Shown here: positions 44,740 to 53,542 of the stretch, piece after piece | How the letters are laid out: every line of letters starts with the position of its first letter | How positions within the stretch are numbered: position 1 is the first letter of the stretch | Source: Rhodoferax aquaticus | GTDB taxonomy: Bacteria; Pseudomonadota; Gammaproteobacteria; Burkholderiales; Burkholderiaceae_C | Length of the DNA: 64,000 nt | Direction of reading: 5' to 3' | Assembly: GCF_006974105.1 (NCBI RefSeq) | Contig: NZ_CP036282.1 | Coordinates: 1,922,001-1,986,000, forward strand | The notes under the pieces: generated by a model | Databases searched by the model: none | What the model saw: the letters and a program-made list of their open reading frames with translations, nothing else | What the model was told of the DNA's origin: nothing | Made by a program: the position numbers and the translations under genes

Positions 44740-46098
44740 ATGAGTCGAAAATATTTTGGTACAGATGGAATCCGTGGCGCTGTAGGGGTTGCACCTATCA
44801 CGCCCGACTTTGTGCTGCGCTTGGCCCATGCGGTTGGTCGTGTACTCAAACAGACCGACAATCGCCCAACGGTATTGATTGGCAAAGACACGCGTATTTC
44901 TGGCTACATGCTGGAAAGCGCCTTGGAGAGTGGCTTTAACTCTGCGGGGGTAGACGTGGTGCTGCTCGGACCCTTGCCCACGCCAGGCGTTGCCTATTTG
45001 ACCCGCACCTTGCGGGCTTCCTTGGGGGTGGTGATCAGCGCCAGCCATAACCCGTTTGCCGACAACGGCATCAAGTTTTTCAGTGCCCAAGGTACCAAGC
45101 TGCCCGACGCTTGGGAGTTGTCCGTCGAGGCTGCTTTGGAACTGCCCCCTCAGTGGGTGGATTCGGCCAATTTGGGTAAATCCCGCCGTTTGGACGATGC
45201 GGCTGGCCGCTACATTGAGTTTTGCAAAGGTACATTTGCCAACAACCTCACGCTCAAAGGCGTCAAGATCGTCGTCGACGGCGCGCATGGCGCGGCTTAC
45301 CAAGTCGCTCCCAAAGTGTTCCACGAACTGGGCGCCGAGGTCATCTCGATTGGCTGTGCCCCAGATGGCCTCAACATCAACCACGGGGTTGGAGCTACGC
45401 ACCCTGAGGCACTGGTTGCTGCTGTCAAGGCCCATGGCGCAGACTATGGCATTGCGCTCGATGGCGATGCCGACCGACTGCAATTGGTGGACGCTGACGG
45501 ACGCCTCTTCAACGGCGATGAAATCTTGTACCTCATGGTCAAAGAGCGCCTGTCCCGCGGTGGGCAAGTGTCCGGACGCCGTAGAGATGAGTCCGTCCCT
45601 GGCGTCGTGGGCACGCTCATGACCAATATGGCGGTGGAGTTGGCATTGAAAGACAAGGGCGTGGCCCTGGTACGCGCCAAGGTTGGTGACCGCTATGTGC
45701 TCGAAGAACTTGAAGCGCGCGGTTGGGTACTGGGCGGCGAAGGTTCTGGCCACTTGCTGGCTTTGGACAAGCACACCACGGGCGATGGCATTGTGTCAGC
45801 CCTGCAGGTGTTGCAGGCTTGTATTCGCCATGGTCACACCTTGGCGGCATTGCTTGCCGATGTCACGCTCTTCCCTCAAATCTTGATCAATGTGCGCTTG
45901 CAGCCCGGCCAAGACTGGAAAGCCAGCCCCAATCTGGACGCCACCACCAAAGCGGTAGAGGCAGAGTTGGGCGACACCGGCCGTGTGCTCATCCGCGCAA
46001 GCGGCACCGAGCCCTTGGTGCGCGTGATGGTAGAAGCTCGCGATGAAAGCCAAGCCCGCGCTTGTGCCCAGCGCATTGCGGATACCTTGAAGGCTTAG
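44740..46098 (+). CDS. glmM: Phosphoglucosamine mutase
   Basis: 452 residues. [13 protein letters not shown] starts the protein. The phosphoserine loop is [17 protein letters not shown]. The metal loop [11 protein letters not shown] and the C-terminal phosphate loop [18 protein letters not shown] are intact. It interconverts glucosamine 6- and 1-phosphate for UDP-GlcNAc. The 225 nt after it hold no gene that I can support, only an 8-bp CTGCGCGA/TCGCGTAG hairpin near 46110-46140 without a T-run. Confidence 0.98.
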
Positions 46099-46305: not shown

Positions 46306-46340
46306 GATAAGCGCAAGTAGCTACTATTTTTGTAGCGAAG
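46306..46340 (+). repeat. Short hairpin repeat, copy A, overlapping the arsA stop
   Basis: ATAAGCGCAAGTAGCTAC followed by TATTTTT and GTAGC: a 5-bp GCTAC/GTAGC hairpin with a 7-nt loop. The first 18 nt match copy B (48129-48146) at 16 positions. It overlaps the last five arsA codons and the stop. On the arsA strand no T-run follows, so it is not an obvious terminator. Confidence 0.7.
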
Positions 46341-48105
46341 TCATCTCGCCCAAAGCACGAATTCCCACCGGCCGTTCGGCCATCCATGGCACCACGTAGC
46401 TGTGTTTTGACAGCCCATGGGCAATCCGGTCCATCTGCTGTTGTTCACCAGTTAGTCGGGTTGCTAGCAACGTATCCTGCGTGCCGGCGGCGACCATGCT
46501 TTTGTTGATGACCCAGGCGAAAGGTTCGATTTTCGCGCGGCGCAGGTCGTCCTGCAGCGCTGCGGCTTGCGATACGGGGGTGATTTCGGGCAGTGTGACC
46601 AGCACGATCTTGGTGTGCTGCGGGTCTTGCAGGCGCATCAGCGGCGTGACAAGTCGCCCTAGGCTGGCGTCGCCGTACTCACGCAGCATTTGGCGGTGGT
46701 AGGCGCCGGTGGCGTCCATCAGCAGCAGGCTGTGGCCGGTGGGCGCGGTGTCCAGCACCACAAAAGCGCTGCGCGCCTCGGACACGATGCGTGAAAACGC
46801 ATGGAATACCGCTACCTCTTCGGTGCAGGGCGACTGCAGGTCTTCCCTTAGCAATGCAACACCCGCTGCGTCCAGCCCCGGCGATTTGGCGGCCATCACC
46901 TTGGCGATGTACTTCTCAGTCTCTGCCTTGGGGTCTATACGGTCCACCTTCAGGCCGGGCAGATTTCCGTCCACGGTCACTTGCAGGTGGTCTGCGGGGT
47001 CGGTGGTGCTCAGGTGCACCGAATGGCCACGCTGCACCAAGCCAGCGGCAATGGCAGAGGCGATGGTGGTTTTGCCTACGCCGCCCTTGCCCATGACCAT
47101 GATGAGTCCACGGCCTGCTGTGGCCAGTGCGTCGGTGAGCGCAGCGAGCGTGTGCTCCATGTTGGCGTGGGGCACCGCGCGCTTGGCCGGGCGTGCAGGA
47201 TGTGCTGGCGCGCTTGGCACCGCGTCGTCGCTCGAAAGCAACGCGCGCAGGGCAGCCAAGCCCACGGTGTCAAACGCGCGCAGCGGAATCCGGTCTTGCG
47301 GCAGCACCTGCAAATGCGCTGGCATGTCCGTAAGGGCCTGCGTGCCCAATGCTTCAAAGGCAGTAGCCACAGCATCGTCCGCCGCACTGGCATGGAACAC
47401 GCCGTTGATGGCCAGGCGCTGGTTATGCAGCCCCAAGTCCTGCAGCTCCAACGAAGTGCGCGCAGCCTCAGCAATGGCGCCCACATCGGGGCGGGTGACC
47501 AGTACGACGGTGGTTTGCGCAGCATCGCTCAGCGTTTTCAAGGCTTGAGCGAATCGAGCTTCCTGCATCTTGAGTCCTGAGTGGGGCCCGAGGCACGAGG
47601 CACCACGGTCGTTGCCTTCTAGAAAACCGGTCCATGCTTTGGGCAGGCTCAAGAGGCGTAGCGTGTGACCTGTGGGTGCGGTGTCAAAAACCACATGGTC
47701 ATAGCCCGCAGCGTCGCCACTGAGCAGGTTGGCAAACTCGTCAAACGCGGCAATCTCGGTGGTGCAAGCGCCGGACAGCTGCTCTTGCACCTGGCTGCGC
47801 TCGGTCTGGGAACTGGCTGGGTCCATTTGCGCTAGCACACGGGCTCGGTAGCTCTGGGCCGCGCTGTCGGGGTCGATGTTGAGCACTGATAGGCCTGGTA
47901 CGCCCGGCACGTGTACCGGTGCGTTGGCCAGGGTGATACCTAGTATCTCGTCCAAGTTGCTCGCTGCATCGGTGCTGACCAGCAGTACTTGCTTGCCGCT
48001 GTCGGCCAGCGCGATGGCGCAGGCCGTGGAGAGGGAAGTTTTGCCCACGCCGCCTTTGCCGGTAAAGAACAGGTGGCGGGTAGGGTGGTCTAGAAATGTG
48101 AACAT
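46324..48105 (-). CDS. arsA: Arsenical pump-driving ATPase ArsA
   Basis: 593 residues with two homologous ATPase halves. P-loops are FFTGKGGVGKTSLS (half 1) and VMGKGGVGKTTIASA (about residue 338). DTAPTGHTLRLL and DTAPTGHSLLLM are the switch/signal motifs. The three metalloid-binding cysteines of the R773 protein appear conserved in SGACTTEIAAF, GASCLGP and SPCTEEVAVF. ArsA normally energises the ArsB membrane pump and is fed by the ArsD metallochaperone; neither is encoded here. Last gene of the reverse ars operon, 64 nt after the ATP-grasp-like gene. A general Get3-like targeting role is possible but the cysteines favour metalloid activation. Confidence 0.93.
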   Translation of the reverse strand: MFTFLDHPTRHLFFTGKGGVGKTSLSTACAIALADSGKQVLLVSTDAASNLDEILGITLANAPVHVPGVPGLSVLNIDPDSAAQSYRARVLAQMDPASSQTERSQVQEQLSGACTTEIAAFDEFANLLSGDAAGYDHVVFDTAPTGHTLRLLSLPKAWTGFLEGNDRGASCLGPHSGLKMQEARFAQALKTLSDAAQTTVVLVTRPDVGAIAEAARTSLELQDLGLHNQRLAINGVFHASAADDAVATAFEALGTQALTDMPAHLQVLPQDRIPLRAFDTVGLAALRALLSSDDAVPSAPAHPARPAKRAVPHANMEHTLAALTDALATAGRGLIMVMGKGGVGKTTIASAIAAGLVQRGHSVHLSTTDPADHLQVTVDGNLPGLKVDRIDPKAETEKYIAKVMAAKSPGLDAAGVALLREDLQSPCTEEVAVFHAFSRIVSEARSAFVVLDTAPTGHSLLLMDATGAYHRQMLREYGDASLGRLVTPLMRLQDPQHTKIVLVTLPEITPVSQAAALQDDLRRAKIEPFAWVINKSMVAAGTQDTLLATRLTGEQQQMDRIAHGLSKHSYVVPWMAERPVGIRALGEMTSLQK

Positions 48106-48128
48106 AAATGGCCTCTTGCAACCATGGA

Positions 48129-48178
48129 ATAAGCGCAGGTAGCTATGTTTTATATAGCGATTGCGGCGCTTATGCGCA
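48129..48178 (+). repeat. Short hairpin repeat, copy B, between arsA and the ATP-grasp-like gene
   Basis: ATAAGCGC at 48129-48136 pairs perfectly with GCGCTTAT at 48166-48173 (outer arms). Inside is GCTAT/ATAGC with a 7-nt loop at 48142-48158. The leftmost part matches copy A. It covers the end of the ATP-grasp-like gene and most of the 64-nt gap before arsA, and could limit arsA expression. Confidence 0.7.
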
Positions 48179-49537
48179 TCGCTTGCTGTCAGGTAGGAGC
48201 ATGCCTTGTTGTGCCAAGTCGCTCAGTTCGGGGGCCAACAGAACAGGCGCAAAGCCGCCGCCTGGAGTGCGGAAGTTGGTGGTCTGGCCGCTGTAGGTGC
48301 GGGCGGCCAATAGCTGCACCTGGCCCGCGTAGGTGTAGGCCCGCACATCGAACTTAAGTTCCGTGGTGGCTCCGTCTATTTGCATGGCGCGCAGCGGCGG
48401 CGGCACCAGCGTTTGGGCGATGTAGTCGCCCGCCTGGATCTGCTCCCACACCTTCTTGGTGAGCTTGTCGCCCCGGTACACCGCCCGGGCACCAAACCCG
48501 TCTAATGGTTTAAAGAACAGCTGCTTGCGCCGTTCCCAGAGCTCAGGTGCATGGTCCGGGCTTACCCGTTCACTGGCGGGTACCGCGGCAAGCAGGGTGC
48601 GTTGGTCTGCTGCATCAAGCCCCAAGGCTTTCAATGCTGCGGCTTGGCCCAAAGTGACTAAATGCTGTTTGTTGGCCCGCAAAGCATGGGCGCGTGGGTG
48701 GGGTGTGACTGCTGCCAAACCTCGTGCATAGGCCTGTGCCAGGGCCGTGTGGTCAGCTGCAGACAGGTCAAAGTCGGTCAAACGGTTGTAAACCAAGTCC
48801 AGGGCTAAGGTGTCACTGAAGAGTTGCCCATCGCGCAATTGCAAACTGGCTGCATCTACCACCACAGCCTCTATGTCGTGGCGCTTAAAGAGTTGGGCAA
48901 ACAAGGAGAACTCGGGCGCCAAGTACTGGCTGTCGGGCGCTTGGTCCACGATAGCAATGCTGCGCAGAGGGCGCGGCGCTTGTCCTTGGGCTTGCAAAAA
49001 CAGCGCCCACTCTGCCTGAAACATGGCCACAAAATCATCTTCCAGCGTGCTGACGTTGCCGTAGGCGTGCAGCGTAGTGTCCATCAGGTCGCAGCACGCA
49101 GCCTGCGCACGAAGCAGCACCGCATTGAGCATGGCACCGCCCGCGTTGGTGTTGATTTCAATGAGTTGCGGTCCTGTGGGCGTGAGGTGAAAGTCGTAGC
49201 CCATGAAAACGCCCATCGGGCCGTGGTCAGCCTGCGCAATGGCACTGGCTGCCGGGAGTACCTGCGCTGCCCACCCCGGCAGGGACAAGGTGCGCTCAAT
49301 GGCTGCCACCGCGTTTTGCACAGCTTGCACCGTGGCGTGCGACACAAACACCGCCGTATTGGAAAACAAGTGCGGGTGCGTTTGCGCCAAGGTGCATGCT
49401 ATGTCGCGTAGCCTTGGATCCCGCCCTATGGCTTGGCTCAGCAAGTTGACGTCCAAGGTCTTGCAATAGCAGTGATGGTTCAGCGCATCGGCCAGCGCGG
49501 GGGATGTGTGTGTCATGGTGTGGGGCGTTTGGCTCAC
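48170..49537 (-). CDS. ATP-grasp-like protein of unknown function in the ars operon
   Basis: 455 residues, no signal peptide or membrane span. The middle has [18 protein letters not shown], like an ATP-grasp metal-binding E-x-N motif. A later segment, [20 protein letters not shown], then [12 protein letters not shown] and [14 protein letters not shown], looks like the lysine/glycine-loop and R-containing strands of an ATP-grasp ligase in permuted order. Cysteines are notable: HHCYCK near residue 22, an ACC pair and a final RCA. ATP-grasp enzymes join a carboxylate to an amine or thiol, as in glutathione synthesis. Here the substrate is unknown; a conjugate involved in arsenic handling is inference from context. 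GTG start overlapping the arsH stop by 4 nt. Confidence 0.7.
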
Positions 49538-50280
49538 AGGCTACGCTGATTCACCCGCTTCATCAGTTGTTCAGCACTCTCTTTGCGCTCGCTGTAGCGG
49601 TCCACCAGATAGTCGGACGCATCGCGGGTGAGCAGGGTGAACTTCATCAGCTCTTCCATTACATCGACCACGCGGTCAAAGTAGCTGGATGGCTTCATGC
49701 GGTCGTCGTCGCCGAACTCCATGAATGCCTTGGCCACCGAGCTTTGGTTAGGGATGGTCACCATGCGCATCCAGCGGCCCAGCACACGCATTTGGTTCAC
49801 GGCGTTGAAGCTTTGCGAGCCGCCGCTCACCTGCATGACCGCCAGTGTCTTGCCCTGGGTGGGGCGCACGGCACCGCTGTTGAGTGGTATCCAGTCGATC
49901 TGCGCTTTCATGATGCCGGTCATGGCGCCGTGCCGCTCGGGTGAGGTCCAGACCATGCCTTCGCTCCACTGCGTCAGCGCGCGCAACTCTTGCACCTTGG
50001 GGTGGGTGTCGGGCGCGTCGTCGGGCAGGGGCAGGCCGCTGGGGTTGAAGATGCGGGTCTCAGCCCCCATGGCCTGCAGCAAACGCGCAGCCTCTTCGGT
50101 GAGCAGGCGGCTAAAGGATCGGGGCCGCAGCGAGCCGTAGAGCAGCGCAATGCGCGGCGCATGGGTGGAGGGCGTTGGGCGCAGTGCGGCGGCATCCGCC
50201 AGGCGGAAGTGCGCGACCTCCAGTTGGGGCAGGGTGCTTAGCACATCAGACACGCTATCAGACACGTTGGCCCTTGTCAT
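49534..50280 (-). CDS. arsH: NADPH-dependent FMN reductase ArsH
   Basis: 248 residues. [20 protein letters not shown] is the ArsH flavodoxin-like FMN loop, with [20 protein letters not shown] and [20 protein letters not shown] also typical. ArsH oxidises trivalent organoarsenicals such as methylarsenite to the less toxic pentavalent form. Its presence therefore points to organoarsenicals as well as inorganic arsenic. The start overlaps the preceding arsC by 23 nt and the stop overlaps the ATP-grasp-like gene by 4 nt. Confidence 0.95.
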
Positions 50281-50677
50281 TCACCACTGCTTCGCCATCT
50301 TCTTTGGTGAAGGCAGCTTGCTGGGCGTGGGGCAAGAGGTCCAGCACCAGCTCGGAGGGGCGGCACAGGCGGGTGCCCAGGGGCGTTTCCACCACCGGGC
50401 GGTTGATGAGAATGGGGTGGGCCAGCATGAAGTCCAGCAACTCGTCGTCCGTCCATTTGTCGTTCGACAGATCCAGCTCGGCATAAGGCGTGCCTTTTTC
50501 GCGCAGCAGGGTGCGGGGGCCTGTGCCCATGGCAGCCAGCAACTCTTGCAGGCGGGCCTTGGTGGGCGGTGTTTTTAGGTATTCGATGACCGTGGGCTCC
50601 ACGCCGCTGTTGCGGATCATGGCCAGAGTGTTGCGCGAGGTGCCGCAGGCGGGGTTGTGAAAAATGGTGATGGTCAT
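50258..50677 (-). CDS. arsC: Arsenate reductase, glutaredoxin-coupled type
   Basis: 139 residues, ArsC/Spx-like thioredoxin fold. [20 protein letters not shown] holds the catalytic cysteine (residue 11), and arginines in [19 protein letters not shown] and TRLCRPS match the arsenate-binding set. Reduces arsenate to arsenite using glutathione and glutaredoxin. It overlaps the aquaporin stop by 4 nt. A second, unrelated arsenate reductase lies one gene upstream. Confidence 0.95.
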
Positions 50678-51540
50678 ACAGAGGTCTTCTTGGAGGAAAG
50701 TGCTTGGGCCAAGGCGACCCCGAGGCCTGCACCCACGGTTTGCGCCAGCACAAAGCCGATGGCGCTGGCCGGTGCAATGCCCGCAAAGGTGTCGCTGAAC
50801 ATGCGGCCCATGACGGCTGCCGGGTTGGCAAACGAGGTGCTGGCGGTGAACCAGTAGGCCGCGCCGATGTAGCAGGCCACCAGGGCCGGGGCTTTGCCTT
50901 CAGGCGCGCGCAAAATAGTGAACAGCAGCCCGCCGGTGGCCACGGCTTCGGCCACCCACTGGCCCCAGCCGGTGAACTGGCCGGCAGCGTCCCAGCCGCC
51001 GCGCAGGTGTTGGCTGAAATGCAGCAGAGGCAGCTCGAACATGGCGTTGGCCAGAGCTGCACCTGCTATGGCACCGGAGAGTTGAGATGCTATAAAAAAC
51101 GTAGCCACTCGCGCACTATTCATGGGCGAAAGTTGCCCTTTTGACCACATAACGAGCGTGACCAGCGGGTTGAAGTGGGCGCCGCTCACCGGTCCCAGGC
51201 TTTCGATCAGCACGTAGAGCGCGAATACAGTGGCCAGGGTGTTGGCCAAGAGCGCCACGCCATCGTTGCCACCACTGATGCGCTGGGCCATGATGCCTGA
51301 GCCTATGACGGCGCAGAGCAGGGCGGCGGTGCCTGCGAACTCTGCAAGCAGTTGTTGTGGCAGTCGGCTTGGTGCGACGGCTTGTGGGGCGCTGCGCCCG
51401 GGCGGCAGTGCGTTCTGCTTCGTGTCCTCCGCCCTACGGCTTGCGCCTGCGGGCTCCTCCTTAACCTGCGCAGAACGCACCGCCGCCCCGGCTTCGGTCG
51501 TGGCGTTCAAGCCAGATTCAATTTCTGTTTGATCGCTCAT
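50674..51540 (-). CDS. aqpS: MIP-family aquaglyceroporin (AqpS-like arsenite channel)
   Basis: 288 residues. Six spans and two half-helices. The first NPA motif is altered to NPL (GAHFNPLVTL), the second is intact (FANPAAVMGRM), but the selectivity-filter arginine that normally follows the second NPA is replaced by alanine. Rhizobial ars operons use AqpS in place of ArsB to let arsenite leave the cell. The first about 60 residues are a Gly/Ala/Pro/charged extension that contains an inverted-repeat element in frame. It overlaps both arsC genes by 4 nt. Widened pore specificity is inference. Confidence 0.9.
   Translation of the reverse strand: MSDQTEIESGLNATTEAGAAVRSAQVKEEPAGASRRAEDTKQNALPPGRSAPQAVAPSRLPQQLLAEFAGTAALLCAVIGSGIMAQRISGGNDGVALLANTLATVFALYVLIESLGPVSGAHFNPLVTLVMWSKGQLSPMNSARVATFFIASQLSGAIAGAALANAMFELPLLHFSQHLRGGWDAAGQFTGWGQWVAEAVATGGLLFTILRAPEGKAPALVACYIGAAYWFTASTSFANPAAVMGRMFSDTFAGIAPASAIGFVLAQTVGAGLGVALAQALSSKKTSV
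51089..51120 (-). repeat. Hairpin repeat-like segment, copy C, inside aqpS
   Basis: Read on the reverse strand, the 26 nt from GCGCGAGTGG to the TATAGC end agree with copy A at 21 positions, including the GCTAC...TAGC hairpin arms. It encodes part of a membrane segment (residues near VATFFIASQ), so the resemblance could be partly coincidental. Confidence 0.45.
51401..51487. repeat. 87-nt inverted-repeat element in the 5' part of aqpS
   Basis: GGCGGCAGTGCGTTCTGC (51401-51418) and GCAGAACGCACCGCCGCC (51470-51487) are inverted repeats with 17 of 18 positions paired, enclosing 51 nt. It lies wholly within the unusual N-terminal extension of the aquaporin and reads through in frame. It looks like a small non-autonomous or REP-type element. 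Only one copy was found in this window. Confidence 0.75.
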
Positions 51541-52040
51541 GCTTTTGCCAAGTCCTTCGCGGTTTGCTGGATCACCATGGCGCTTAGCTTGTCGGTGGGT
51601 AGGTTGACAAGTAACTCCAGTCGGCGGTGGATGGCATGCAGGGTATGGCGAAACGCTTGGGCCTTGTCAGCATCGCTACCGTCGCCCGCAGACGGGTCGG
51701 CGTAGCCCCAGTGGGCGGTGGCGGGTTTGCCGGGCCAGAAGGGACAGACTTCACCGGCAGCGTTGTCGCACACGGTGATGATGAGGTCCATGTGCGGTGC
51801 GTCGGGTAGGGCGAATTCGTCCCAGCTTTTGCTGCGCAAGCCCGCTGTTGAGATGCCTGCGGTTTCTAGGGTTTGCAGGCCTATGGGGTTGGGTTGTTGG
51901 TTCTCACGTGGGCTGCTGCCAGCCGAGTAGCCGACGAAGCGGCCTTTGCCGATGTGGTTGAGTGTGGCTTCGGCCAAGATGCTGCGGGCCGAGTTGTGGG
52001 TGCACAAAAACAAAACGCGGATGGGGGAGGTTTCGGACAT
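51537..52040 (-). CDS. arsC: Arsenate reductase, low-molecular-weight phosphatase (thioredoxin-coupled) type
   Basis: 167 residues. VLFLCTHNSARSILAEA is the phosphatase-like CX5R loop. ITVCDNAAGEVCPFWPG gives the C-x6-C redox pair that shuttles to thioredoxin in the S. aureus type, and WGYADPSAG supplies the D-P general acid. It reduces arsenate to arsenite. First gene after arsR (56-nt gap), with its stop overlapping the aquaporin start by 4 nt. The C-terminal tail is about 30 residues longer than the shortest family members. Confidence 0.95.
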   Translation of the reverse strand: MSETSPIRVLFLCTHNSARSILAEATLNHIGKGRFVGYSAGSSPRENQQPNPIGLQTLETAGISTAGLRSKSWDEFALPDAPHMDLIITVCDNAAGEVCPFWPGKPATAHWGYADPSAGDGSDADKAQAFRHTLHAIHRRLELLVNLPTDKLSAMVIQQTAKDLAKA

Positions 52041-52096
52041 GGGTGGTCTTTCTTGGTCAGGGAAACGGGGTTTGGCAAGAGCGTTAGCAGCCGCGC

Positions 52097-52492
52097 TCAG
52101 CAGCCGCAGCCAGCCATATTGGCGCTTTTGTTTGACACCTCCAAGTCACAGGCTTGGCCTTGGCAGCAGTGTTCTGTGAGGTAGGCCAGCACGCCGTTCA
52201 TGTGGGCGAAGTTGGCGCGGTAGATGAGGTTACGTCCACGCTGCTGCGCCGCCACCAAGCCCGAGTGCGTCAGCTCTTTCAGGTGGAATGACAAGGCGCT
52301 GGGTGATGTCTGCAGCTGCTGGGCCAGCACACCGGGCGTCAGACCATCTATCCCCGCGACCACCAAAGCTTTGAAGGTGCGCAGCCTTTGGGCCTGGGCC
52401 AAGGCGGTGAGGGCTTTGAGGGTTTGGGTCTCGTCCAAAACGGTGGCGGCTGCCGTGCAGTCTACGGGGTCGAGTGGGATTAATGCATTCAT
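52097..52492 (-). CDS. arsR: ArsR-family arsenic-responsive repressor
   Basis: 131 residues. A winged helix-turn-helix: LVVAGIDGLTPGVLAQQL then TSPSALSFHLKELTHSGLV (recognition helix) and QRGRNLIYRANF (wing). The metalloid-sensor cysteines are not in the recognition helix as in R773 ArsR but C-terminal, in TEHCCQGQAC and the final CGC, an arrangement like that of Acidithiobacillus ArsR. First gene of the operon, divergent from olsB. An inverted repeat immediately upstream of its ATG is the likely operator. Confidence 0.95.
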   Translation of the reverse strand: MNALIPLDPVDCTAAATVLDETQTLKALTALAQAQRLRTFKALVVAGIDGLTPGVLAQQLQTSPSALSFHLKELTHSGLVAAQQRGRNLIYRANFAHMNGVLAYLTEHCCQGQACDLEVSNKSANMAGCGC

Positions 52493-52512
52493 ATTTCAAT
52501 GATACTTGAAAT
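52493..52512. promoter_or_regulatory. Probable ArsR operator
   Basis: ATTTCAA and TTGAAAT form a perfect 7-bp inverted repeat with a 6-nt spacer, directly abutting the arsR start codon. ArsR binding here would block the operon promoter. Upstream on the same strand TTGGCA then 17 nt then TATTTC is one possible promoter overlapping the repeat. Confidence 0.6.
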
Positions 52513-52575
52513 ATTGAATTAACCATTGTTTGCCAATGATTTCGGCACTGGAGTGGGCTTGGTCGATGTGGGGCT

Positions 52576-52723: not shown

Positions 52724-53542
52724 GTGACGAACCTCAATCGCATCGAAGTGCGTGATTCAAGCCCCAGCGCAGTCGCTGGCATTGCCAACCCCGCCACTAC
52801 CCAGAATTCAGCAGCCCGCAACATCGAAGTCTCATGGGCACGCCATTTGGACGATGTGCGCGCCGCACAGCGCTTGCGCTATGACGTGTTCGCCACCGAA
52901 ATGGGAGCCCGCCTCAGCACGACTTTGCCGGGCCATGACATCGACTTGTTTGATAATTTTTGCGAGCACCTGCTGGTGCGCGACCAAGCCACCCAACACG
53001 TGATTGGCACCTACCGCGTGTTGACCCCTGTGCAAGCTAAGCGGGTGGGCAGTACTTACAGCGATACCGAGTTTGATTTGACCCGCTTGCGCACCTTGCG
53101 TGACCGCATGGTGGAGTTGGGCCGCAGCTGCGTGCACCCCGACCACCGCCATGGCGGCGTGATCATGGCGCTGTGGAGCGCTTTGGCCGAGTTCATGGTG
53201 CGCAACCAACTCGATACCATGATTGGTTGTGCCAGCGTGCCCATGTTGCATAACGGCATTGTGAGTGGTGACGTGGCTGCCAGCATCTGGCGCCAAGTGC
53301 AGCAAACCCACTTGGCACCTATTGAATACCACGTGCGCCCGCGTTTGCCCTTGCCTATCGACAAGCTGGACTCCACCCTCAACGTGGAGCCACCGGCATT
53401 GATCAAAGGCTACTTGCGCTTAGGTGCCAAAGTACTGGGTGCCCCGGCATGGGACCCAGACTTCAATTCGGCGGATTTGCCAATGCTCATGCGCATTGCC
53501 GATTTGCCTGCCCGTTACCGCAAACACTTTCTGGGGGCGTAA
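52724..53542 (+). CDS. olsB: L-ornithine N-alpha-acyltransferase OlsB
   Basis: 272 residues, GNAT-like. RLRYDVFATEMGARL, LFDNFCEHLLVRD and especially VELGRSCVHPDHRHGGVIM are characteristic of OlsB/hemolysin-type acyltransferases. OlsB transfers a 3-hydroxyacyl chain from ACP to ornithine, the first step of phosphorus-free ornithine lipids. OlsA is not in the window. Its stop overlaps the next ATG by one base. The upstream tandem Pho boxes fit induction by phosphate starvation. Confidence 0.9.
   Translation: MTNLNRIEVRDSSPSAVAGIANPATTQNSAARNIEVSWARHLDDVRAAQRLRYDVFATEMGARLSTTLPGHDIDLFDNFCEHLLVRDQATQHVIGTYRVLTPVQAKRVGSTYSDTEFDLTRLRTLRDRMVELGRSCVHPDHRHGGVIMALWSALAEFMVRNQLDTMIGCASVPMLHNGIVSGDVAASIWRQVQQTHLAPIEYHVRPRLPLPIDKLDSTLNVEPPALIKGYLRLGAKVLGAPAWDPDFNSADLPMLMRIADLPARYRKHFLGA

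Follow-up and report, generated by a model that had tools for sequence, protein, structure and literature searches.

An ArsA ATPase beside an AqpS-like channel, and a member of an unnamed ligase family, in an arsenic operon of Rhodoferax aquaticus

What does ArsA do where there is no pump for it to drive? ArsA is known as the motor of ArsB or Acr3, and the question is raised by a seven-gene arsenic operon of Rhodoferax aquaticus, lying in a window of 64,000 nucleotides (the whole stretch of DNA analysed; contig NZ_CP036282.1, positions 1,922,001 to 1,986,000), which encodes ArsR, two ArsC arsenate reductases, an AqpS-like channel, ArsH, an ATP-grasp-like protein of 455 residues and ArsA. An earlier examination of the DNA letters (the sequence-only reading) had named and placed these genes, and all seven are indeed present on the minus strand with intact frames (Table 1). 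We favor, with a probability of roughly 60%, the view that the operon detoxifies arsenate under the control of ArsR and is of the pumpless AqpS kind, with the activities of ArsA and of a thiol- or peptide-type ligase added. By analogy with characterized relatives, the two ArsC enzymes would reduce arsenate, the internally made arsenite would exit down its gradient through the AqpS-like channel, and ArsH would oxidize trivalent organoarsenicals. The intact, arsenite-type ArsA most likely binds cytosolic arsenite and works with the AqpS pathway in a manner that we infer, rather than being a leftover. The 455-residue protein is predicted to be a carboxylate-amine ligase with the fold of glutathionylspermidine and eukaryote-type glutathione synthetases, and its most probable task is the synthesis or lengthening of a small thiol peptide or peptide-amine able to bind soft metals, As(III) and Cu(I) among them, the presumed substrate being our own proposal and the metal linkage coming from comparison.

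The genome consists of one contig of 4.74 Mb, is listed as 100% complete, and contains a single copy of ArsA. A search of all of it, as the sequence-only reading had proposed, found no Acr3, ArsB, ArsP or ArsD (ArsJ and ArsK were not searched for), so that the claim of an operon without a pump holds as far as the search extended, and there is no ArsB or Acr3 elsewhere that could explain the presence of ArsA. The full gene order is identical in Rhodoferax bucti, Rhodoferax sp. TS-BS-61-7 and Rhodoferax sp. TH121 (L086, L087 and L088 in our numbering of loci) and is therefore more than chance; a fortuitous assembly of the operon, which would have been signaled by its absence from relatives, was dropped as an explanation. 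These three draft genomes and that of a related Rhodoferax metagenome-assembled genome (MAG; L089) contain no ArsB and no Acr3 above cut-off, TH121 having one Acr3 match of 30 bits against a cut-off of 282.8. A pump of a kind not recognized here (ArsK-like, of the major facilitator superfamily or of another family) could be encoded elsewhere, export arsenite and so explain ArsA, and the genome search covered the ArsB, Acr3 and ArsP families but neither ArsJ nor ArsK. We regard this as very unlikely, because AqpS occurs without a nearby pump across the order, and the characterized AqpS pathway needs none according to the available portion of PMC6205960.

The substitution of a channel for a pump is a known and common route, as seen both in Sinorhizobium meliloti AqpS and in the 67 loci, described below, that have no Acr3 or ArsB. 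In S. meliloti, arsenite made by ArsC exits through the channel and no pump is needed (Yang et al. 2005, as presented in the available portion of PMC6205960), and among 717 putative transporters in 685 ars operons 18 are major intrinsic proteins (MIPs; PMC4435449, available portion). At an E-value of 1e-30 an AqpS-like channel is encoded in 67 of 399 genomes of the order, including that of the window. In 67 fetched AqpS loci (window not counted) neither Acr3 nor ArsB occurs within 8.5 kb, or before the end of the contig where, as in some, that comes sooner, and these loci have arsC within 8.5 kb in 61 cases, arsD-arsA in three and the ATP-grasp gene in one. The window operon, which unites ArsR, ArsC and a MIP channel and lacks ArsB and Acr3, has the composition of this pumpless AqpS type. 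It resembles the S. meliloti operon, which has the order arsR-aqpS-arsC-arsH, in that a MIP channel replaces ArsB or Acr3 alongside ArsR, ArsC and ArsH, but differs in also having ArsA, the ATP-grasp-like ligase and a second ArsC. The window channel has NPL at its first motif and NPA followed by alanine at its second; aquaporins usually carry arginine after the second NPA, a residue found there in none of the 81 channels compared, all of which have V, A, I or L. By analogy, the channel would conduct arsenite out of the cell. The suggestion in the sequence-only reading of a different export route thus survives only in part: channels standing in for pumps are neither new nor rare, whereas ArsA beside AqpS without an adjacent pump, together with the ligase gene, does appear unusual.

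The window ArsA scores 721 bits with TIGR04291, above cut-off, and retains both P-loops (at 18 and 341) and the three cysteine motifs (GACTTE at 112, ASCLG at 169 and SPCTE at 425) of Escherichia coli ArsA (1f48), with equivalents of the cysteines that we take to be Cys113, Cys172 and Cys422 in the E. coli numbering and that presumably bind As(III). In this it is like the ArsA of the ArsAB and ArsA-Acr3 systems (such as that of plasmid R773), but unlike those systems it has no ArsB, Acr3 or ArsD anywhere in its genome. At an E-value of 1e-60, ArsA is encoded in 41 of the 399 genomes, and within approximately 7 kb of 42 ArsA loci there is Acr3 in 17, ArsB in six, AqpS in four (window included), and none of these in 15. 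Plasmids of Sphaerotilus sulfidivorans and Aquincola tertiaricarbonis carry arsR-arsC-arsC-MIP-arsD-arsA, and loci L241, L247 and L259 carry arsR-arsC-arsD-arsA-arsC-MIP, all resembling the window in combining a channel and ArsA in a pump-free operon, but differing in that they have ArsD, have no ligase, and encode ArsA proteins of other clades. No ArsB or Acr3 was found in the genomes of L241, L247 and L259, which are 100, 100 and 86% complete, respectively.

In a tree of 59 ArsA proteins (usable sequences came from 59 of 62 loci), nine AqpS-linked rows fall into three deep clades, and the 15-row clade containing the window ArsA has no member with a nearby ArsD match. A single origin of the nine is rejected by the approximately unbiased (AU) test (p-AU 1.7e-39), as it is for the five ArsD-bearing rows (2.9e-61) and for L241, L247 and L259 alone (2.7e-46), the nine-row group being defined by gene context and the two smaller groups chosen after seeing the tree. 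The occurrence of ArsA beside AqpS without an adjacent pump therefore recurs in several ArsA lineages.

This recurrence in three deep clades, together with the retained P-loops and cysteine motifs, could be explained if ArsA couples to AqpS, docking on or gating the channel such that ATP makes arsenite exit directional, with AqpS a further membrane partner beside ArsB and Acr3. AqpS is also encoded elsewhere in the genome for six of 15 ArsA loci without a local pump versus one of 22 with one (p 0.011; AqpS-adjacent loci are excluded and the statistic ignores kinship); inclusion of the four AqpS-adjacent loci gives 10 of 19 versus one of 22 (p 0.0009), but this is partly circular and the first comparison is used instead. 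According to the available portion of PMC6205960, Castillo and Saier proposed that ArsA associates with a variety of membrane proteins, although the term 'aquaporin' is absent from the accessible text of their paper. AqpS also works without ArsA, with no ArsA nearby in 64 of the 67 loci of the order and in eight of 12 AqpS loci that carry the ligase gene, and no ArsA-energized channel was found in the open-licence literature; nor do we know of one. Coupling of this kind thus seems unlikely.

ArsA could instead be a relic, or a hitch-hiker, left from the replacement of Acr3 by AqpS in an Acr3 operon, with no export role today. The closest ArsA outside the four-strain clade, at 71% identity, lies in an arsR-arsC-acr3-arsA operon, the related MAG locus L089 has arsR-arsC-aqpS-ATP-grasp without arsA, and ArsA without a local pump is common. 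However, ArsA is kept in four genomes without stops, its ratio of nonsynonymous to synonymous polymorphism (pN/pS) against the Rhodoferax relatives is approximately 0.15, the corresponding substitution ratio (dN/dS) between L086 and L088 is 0.08, and the AqpS pairing is found in several ArsA lineages, and we consider a relic doubtful. ArsA thus both recurs without ArsB or Acr3 and is under selection.

The sequence-only reading had also described the gene preceding arsA as an unfamiliar ligase-like gene, and the description is apt: its 455-residue product matches no Pfam or NCBIfam family at E 0.001 and belongs to an unnamed family. It has no significant match among PDB sequences (best E 0.21 with phmmer and 0.79 with a 60-row profile) and no significant PHROG. 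Among 60 family members, NCBIfam glutathione synthase matches three weakly (best E 0.009), and CP_ATPgrasp_2 (PF14403) matches 14 weakly (best E 1.3e-4) but is not among the window protein's own matches. GSP_synth and eukaryotic GSH synthetase, as we take the Pfam families to be named, are absent from the 19 families matched by any of the 60 at E-values up to 10, a search in which the HMMER filters drop most weak matches. The predicted fold nonetheless matches the glutathionylspermidine and eukaryote-type glutathione synthetase superfamily over its full length, well above unrelated ATP-grasp enzymes. Identity to glutathionylspermidine synthetase, the YgiC/YjfC peptide-spermidine ligases and eukaryote-type glutathione and homoglutathione synthetases is 9 to 15%, and the ligase has cysteine motifs of its own, CxC (23, 25) and CC (148, 149), these four residues being kept in 126, 127, 127 and 126 of 129 members, respectively.

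These nearly invariant cysteines could allow the protein to pass As(III) to ArsA in place of ArsD, without any biosynthetic role; the genome has no ArsD, and the ligase gene directly precedes arsA, the position that arsD takes in the operons of Sphaerotilus and Aquincola. Family members in copper, amidotransferase and dinG/moeA contexts retain these cysteines too, along with all likely catalytic residues, and the related loci L054 and L055 carry ArsD and the ligase together, making replacement of ArsD highly improbable.

The ligase contexts extend beyond arsenic. Of 50 loci sampled evenly across the family, the window being one of them, 20 have an arsenic label, nine copper, 11 an amidotransferase, three a cation diffusion facilitator (CDF) transporter and 15 no marker, the labels overlapping; over the complete set of 130 non-redundant loci, 43 are labelled arsenic, 21 copper, 24 amidotransferase, 15 CDF and ten dinG/moeA, and 38 bear no label. 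The 130-locus counts and the set of 12 AqpS loci with the ligase (Acr3 in none, ArsA in four) rest partly on the 80 loci whose ligase most resembles that of the window, and the context counts therefore lean towards the window's kind, whereas the 50-locus sample does not. Markers were sought by tblastn with single references, so that the 'none' counts are upper bounds, and many contigs stop before the full flank. Only the Acr3, ArsJ and amidotransferase references were identified by model; those for ArsP, ArsI, GAPDH, CDF, dinG, moeA and OsmC were named by eye, and copper genes were taken from plasmid annotation. In 22 loci arsR is directly upstream of the ligase (matches no more than 81 nt apart). 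The window's ligase clade has 36 rows (Shimodaira-Hasegawa-like approximate likelihood ratio test, 97), 29 arsenic-linked and seven unlabelled, and the arsenic label changes 14 times over the whole ligase tree and 18 times in a larger one. The larger tree has 129 of 130 rows and the smaller omits eleven long-branch rows; sequence set A1 leaves out internal-stop loci L013, L014, L022 and L027, and set A2 uses 59 of the 60 loci tried from the 80 most similar (L112 was dropped for a stop). Five of six plasmid relatives viewed lie beside copper or heavy-metal genes, and identification of the ligase as an arsenic-only gene was dropped. The gene is thus a member of a widespread unnamed family that is not restricted to arsenic.

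Several observations weigh against the operon as we read it. Because 15 of 42 loci have ArsA without a pump within approximately 7 kb, as do four of five viewed plasmid loci (ArsA 63 to 69% identical; no annotated pump within 6 kb, the Ideonella locus having Acr3), pumpless ArsA is not rare, and we have dropped any argument from rarity. The Aquincola plasmid with arsC-MIP-arsD-arsA has arsB elsewhere on the same plasmid, and co-occurrence of AqpS and ArsA in genomes is only weakly above chance (11 genomes versus 6.9 expected, one-sided p 0.06). In Halomonas GFAJ-1, deleting a scattered arsA had no effect at 5 mM arsenite (PMC5930303, available portion). As for the ligase, 15 of the 50 family-sample loci have no marker nearby, ten loci have it between dinG and moeA, and the sixth plasmid locus adjoins ATP synthase genes, suggesting that its role is broader than arsenic.

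The pairing of ArsA with a passive channel in several lineages, in genomes in which no ArsB or Acr3 was found, makes another partner of ArsA, or a pump-free role, directly testable, and a widespread ligase family with a predicted glutathione-synthetase fold at arsenic and copper resistance loci suggests that bacterial metal defense includes a small-molecule branch still to be discovered. The boldest version, that ArsA drives or gates an aquaglyceroporin-type channel for ATP-dependent, pump-free arsenite exit and that the ligase also makes a previously unknown soft-metal-binding thiol or peptide for defense against arsenic, copper and other metals across the Proteobacteria, we consider quite improbable. 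We recognized no description of such a ligase in an ars operon, or of ArsA coupled to AqpS, in the open-licence literature.

The 15 ArsA loci without nearby Acr3, ArsB or AqpS are L285, L288, L292, L293, L295, L297, L298, L299, L301, L309, L311, L312, L313, L316 and L319. In 12 of these arsD adjoins arsA, and ArsA units without an adjacent pump look common. Twelve of the 15 have no same-strand protein with at least five crude hydrophobic segments within 4 kb, by a counter that scores AqpS itself at only four; AqpS had been sought by tblastn.

Among the other ligase contexts, the dinG/moeA loci (L126, L133, L135, L138, L148, L151, L152, L156, L162 and L163) form one clade on the tree; seven of the ten are titled Zoogloea, Rhodocyclaceae or Rhodocyclales, and further molybdenum-cofactor-like genes, named by eye, are nearby. 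The amidotransferase representative is an N-acetylglutaminylglutamine amidotransferase (TIGR03104, 979 bits), an enzyme of the N-acetylglutaminylglutamine amide (NAGGN) osmolyte pathway that is absent from the window operon but directly adjoins the ligase, in either order, as a two-gene pair in 24 of 130 loci (including L104, L045, L095, L097, L101, L108, L109, L110, L118, L077, L079 and L082). Half of these loci (12) have a CDF, copper or arsenic marker in the vicinity as well, and the pair possibly represents a peptide-amide pathway tied to metals. No further recurrent cluster of open reading frames (ORFs) lies beside the pairs, as judged from ORF clusters only, NAGGN synthetase not having been searched for with a model. 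Two apparent ligase-amidotransferase fusions were set aside: that of L116 (MAG VIKI01000150.1) is in one frame, but the amidotransferase match begins at its residue 5 and it may be an assembly error, and that of L053 is a false frame; no fusion is claimed. In L033, Moraxella osloensis plasmid pMOSL3 (AP017384.1), the ligase family is represented in a copper island with copA, copB, a copper P-type ATPase and tat genes.

The layout of the window operon is given in Table 1. The sequence-only reading described its genes as tightly coupled by four 4-nt overlaps and a larger one of 23 nt between arsC and arsH; the latter is correct, but there are only three 4-nt overlaps (arsC-aqpS, aqpS-arsC and arsH-ATP-grasp), and gaps of 56 nt and 64 nt separate arsR from arsC and the ATP-grasp gene from arsA. 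The low-molecular-weight ArsC has only sub-cut-off NCBIfam arsC matches, including arsC_pI258_fam at 7.5e-18. ArsR would presumably bind the inverted repeat at the start of arsR, whose core, TTCAA-N6-TTGAA, occurs once in the window. All 11 other AqpS and ATP-grasp loci of the 12-locus set have this core too, with an ATG that we read as the start of arsR no more than a few bases after it (L246 lies outside this count).

Table 1. Genes and candidate operator of the Rhodoferax aquaticus ars operon, in window coordinates.
Feature	Coordinates	Strand	Basis
Candidate ArsR operator	52491..52514	-	ATATTTCAA-GTATCA-TTGAAATAT, perfect 9-bp inverted repeat reaching into arsR start codon
arsR, ArsR/SmtB-family repressor, 131 aa	52097..52492	-	HTH_20 above cut-off; HTH_metalloreg 54.1 bits (cut-off 55)
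arsC, low-molecular-weight phosphatase type arsenate reductase, 167 aa	51537..52040	-	Pfam LMWPc 4.3e-15
aqpS-like MIP channel, 288 aa	50674..51540	-	Pfam MIP 2.5e-17
arsC, glutaredoxin-type arsenate reductase, 139 aa	50258..50677	-	TIGR00014 139 bits (cut-off 106)
arsH, 248 aa, homology from residue 17 on	49534..50280	-	TIGR02690 407 bits (cut-off 292)
Unnamed ATP-grasp-like ligase, 455 aa, GTG start	48170..49537	-	Predicted fold of glutathionylspermidine / eukaryote-type glutathione synthetases
arsA, two-domain ATPase, 593 aa	46324..48105	-	TIGR04291 721 bits (cut-off 650); alignment to 1f48

The operon is flanked by a glmM-like phosphomutase gene (44740-46098) and a GCN5-related N-acetyltransferase (GNAT; Acetyltransf_5) gene (52724-53542). 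Clusters of glmM-like and GNAT-like ORFs, named by eye, are found near 16 and 25 of the 130 ligase-bearing loci, respectively, and the recurrence of these neighbors suggests a fixed chromosomal site with variable ars gene content.

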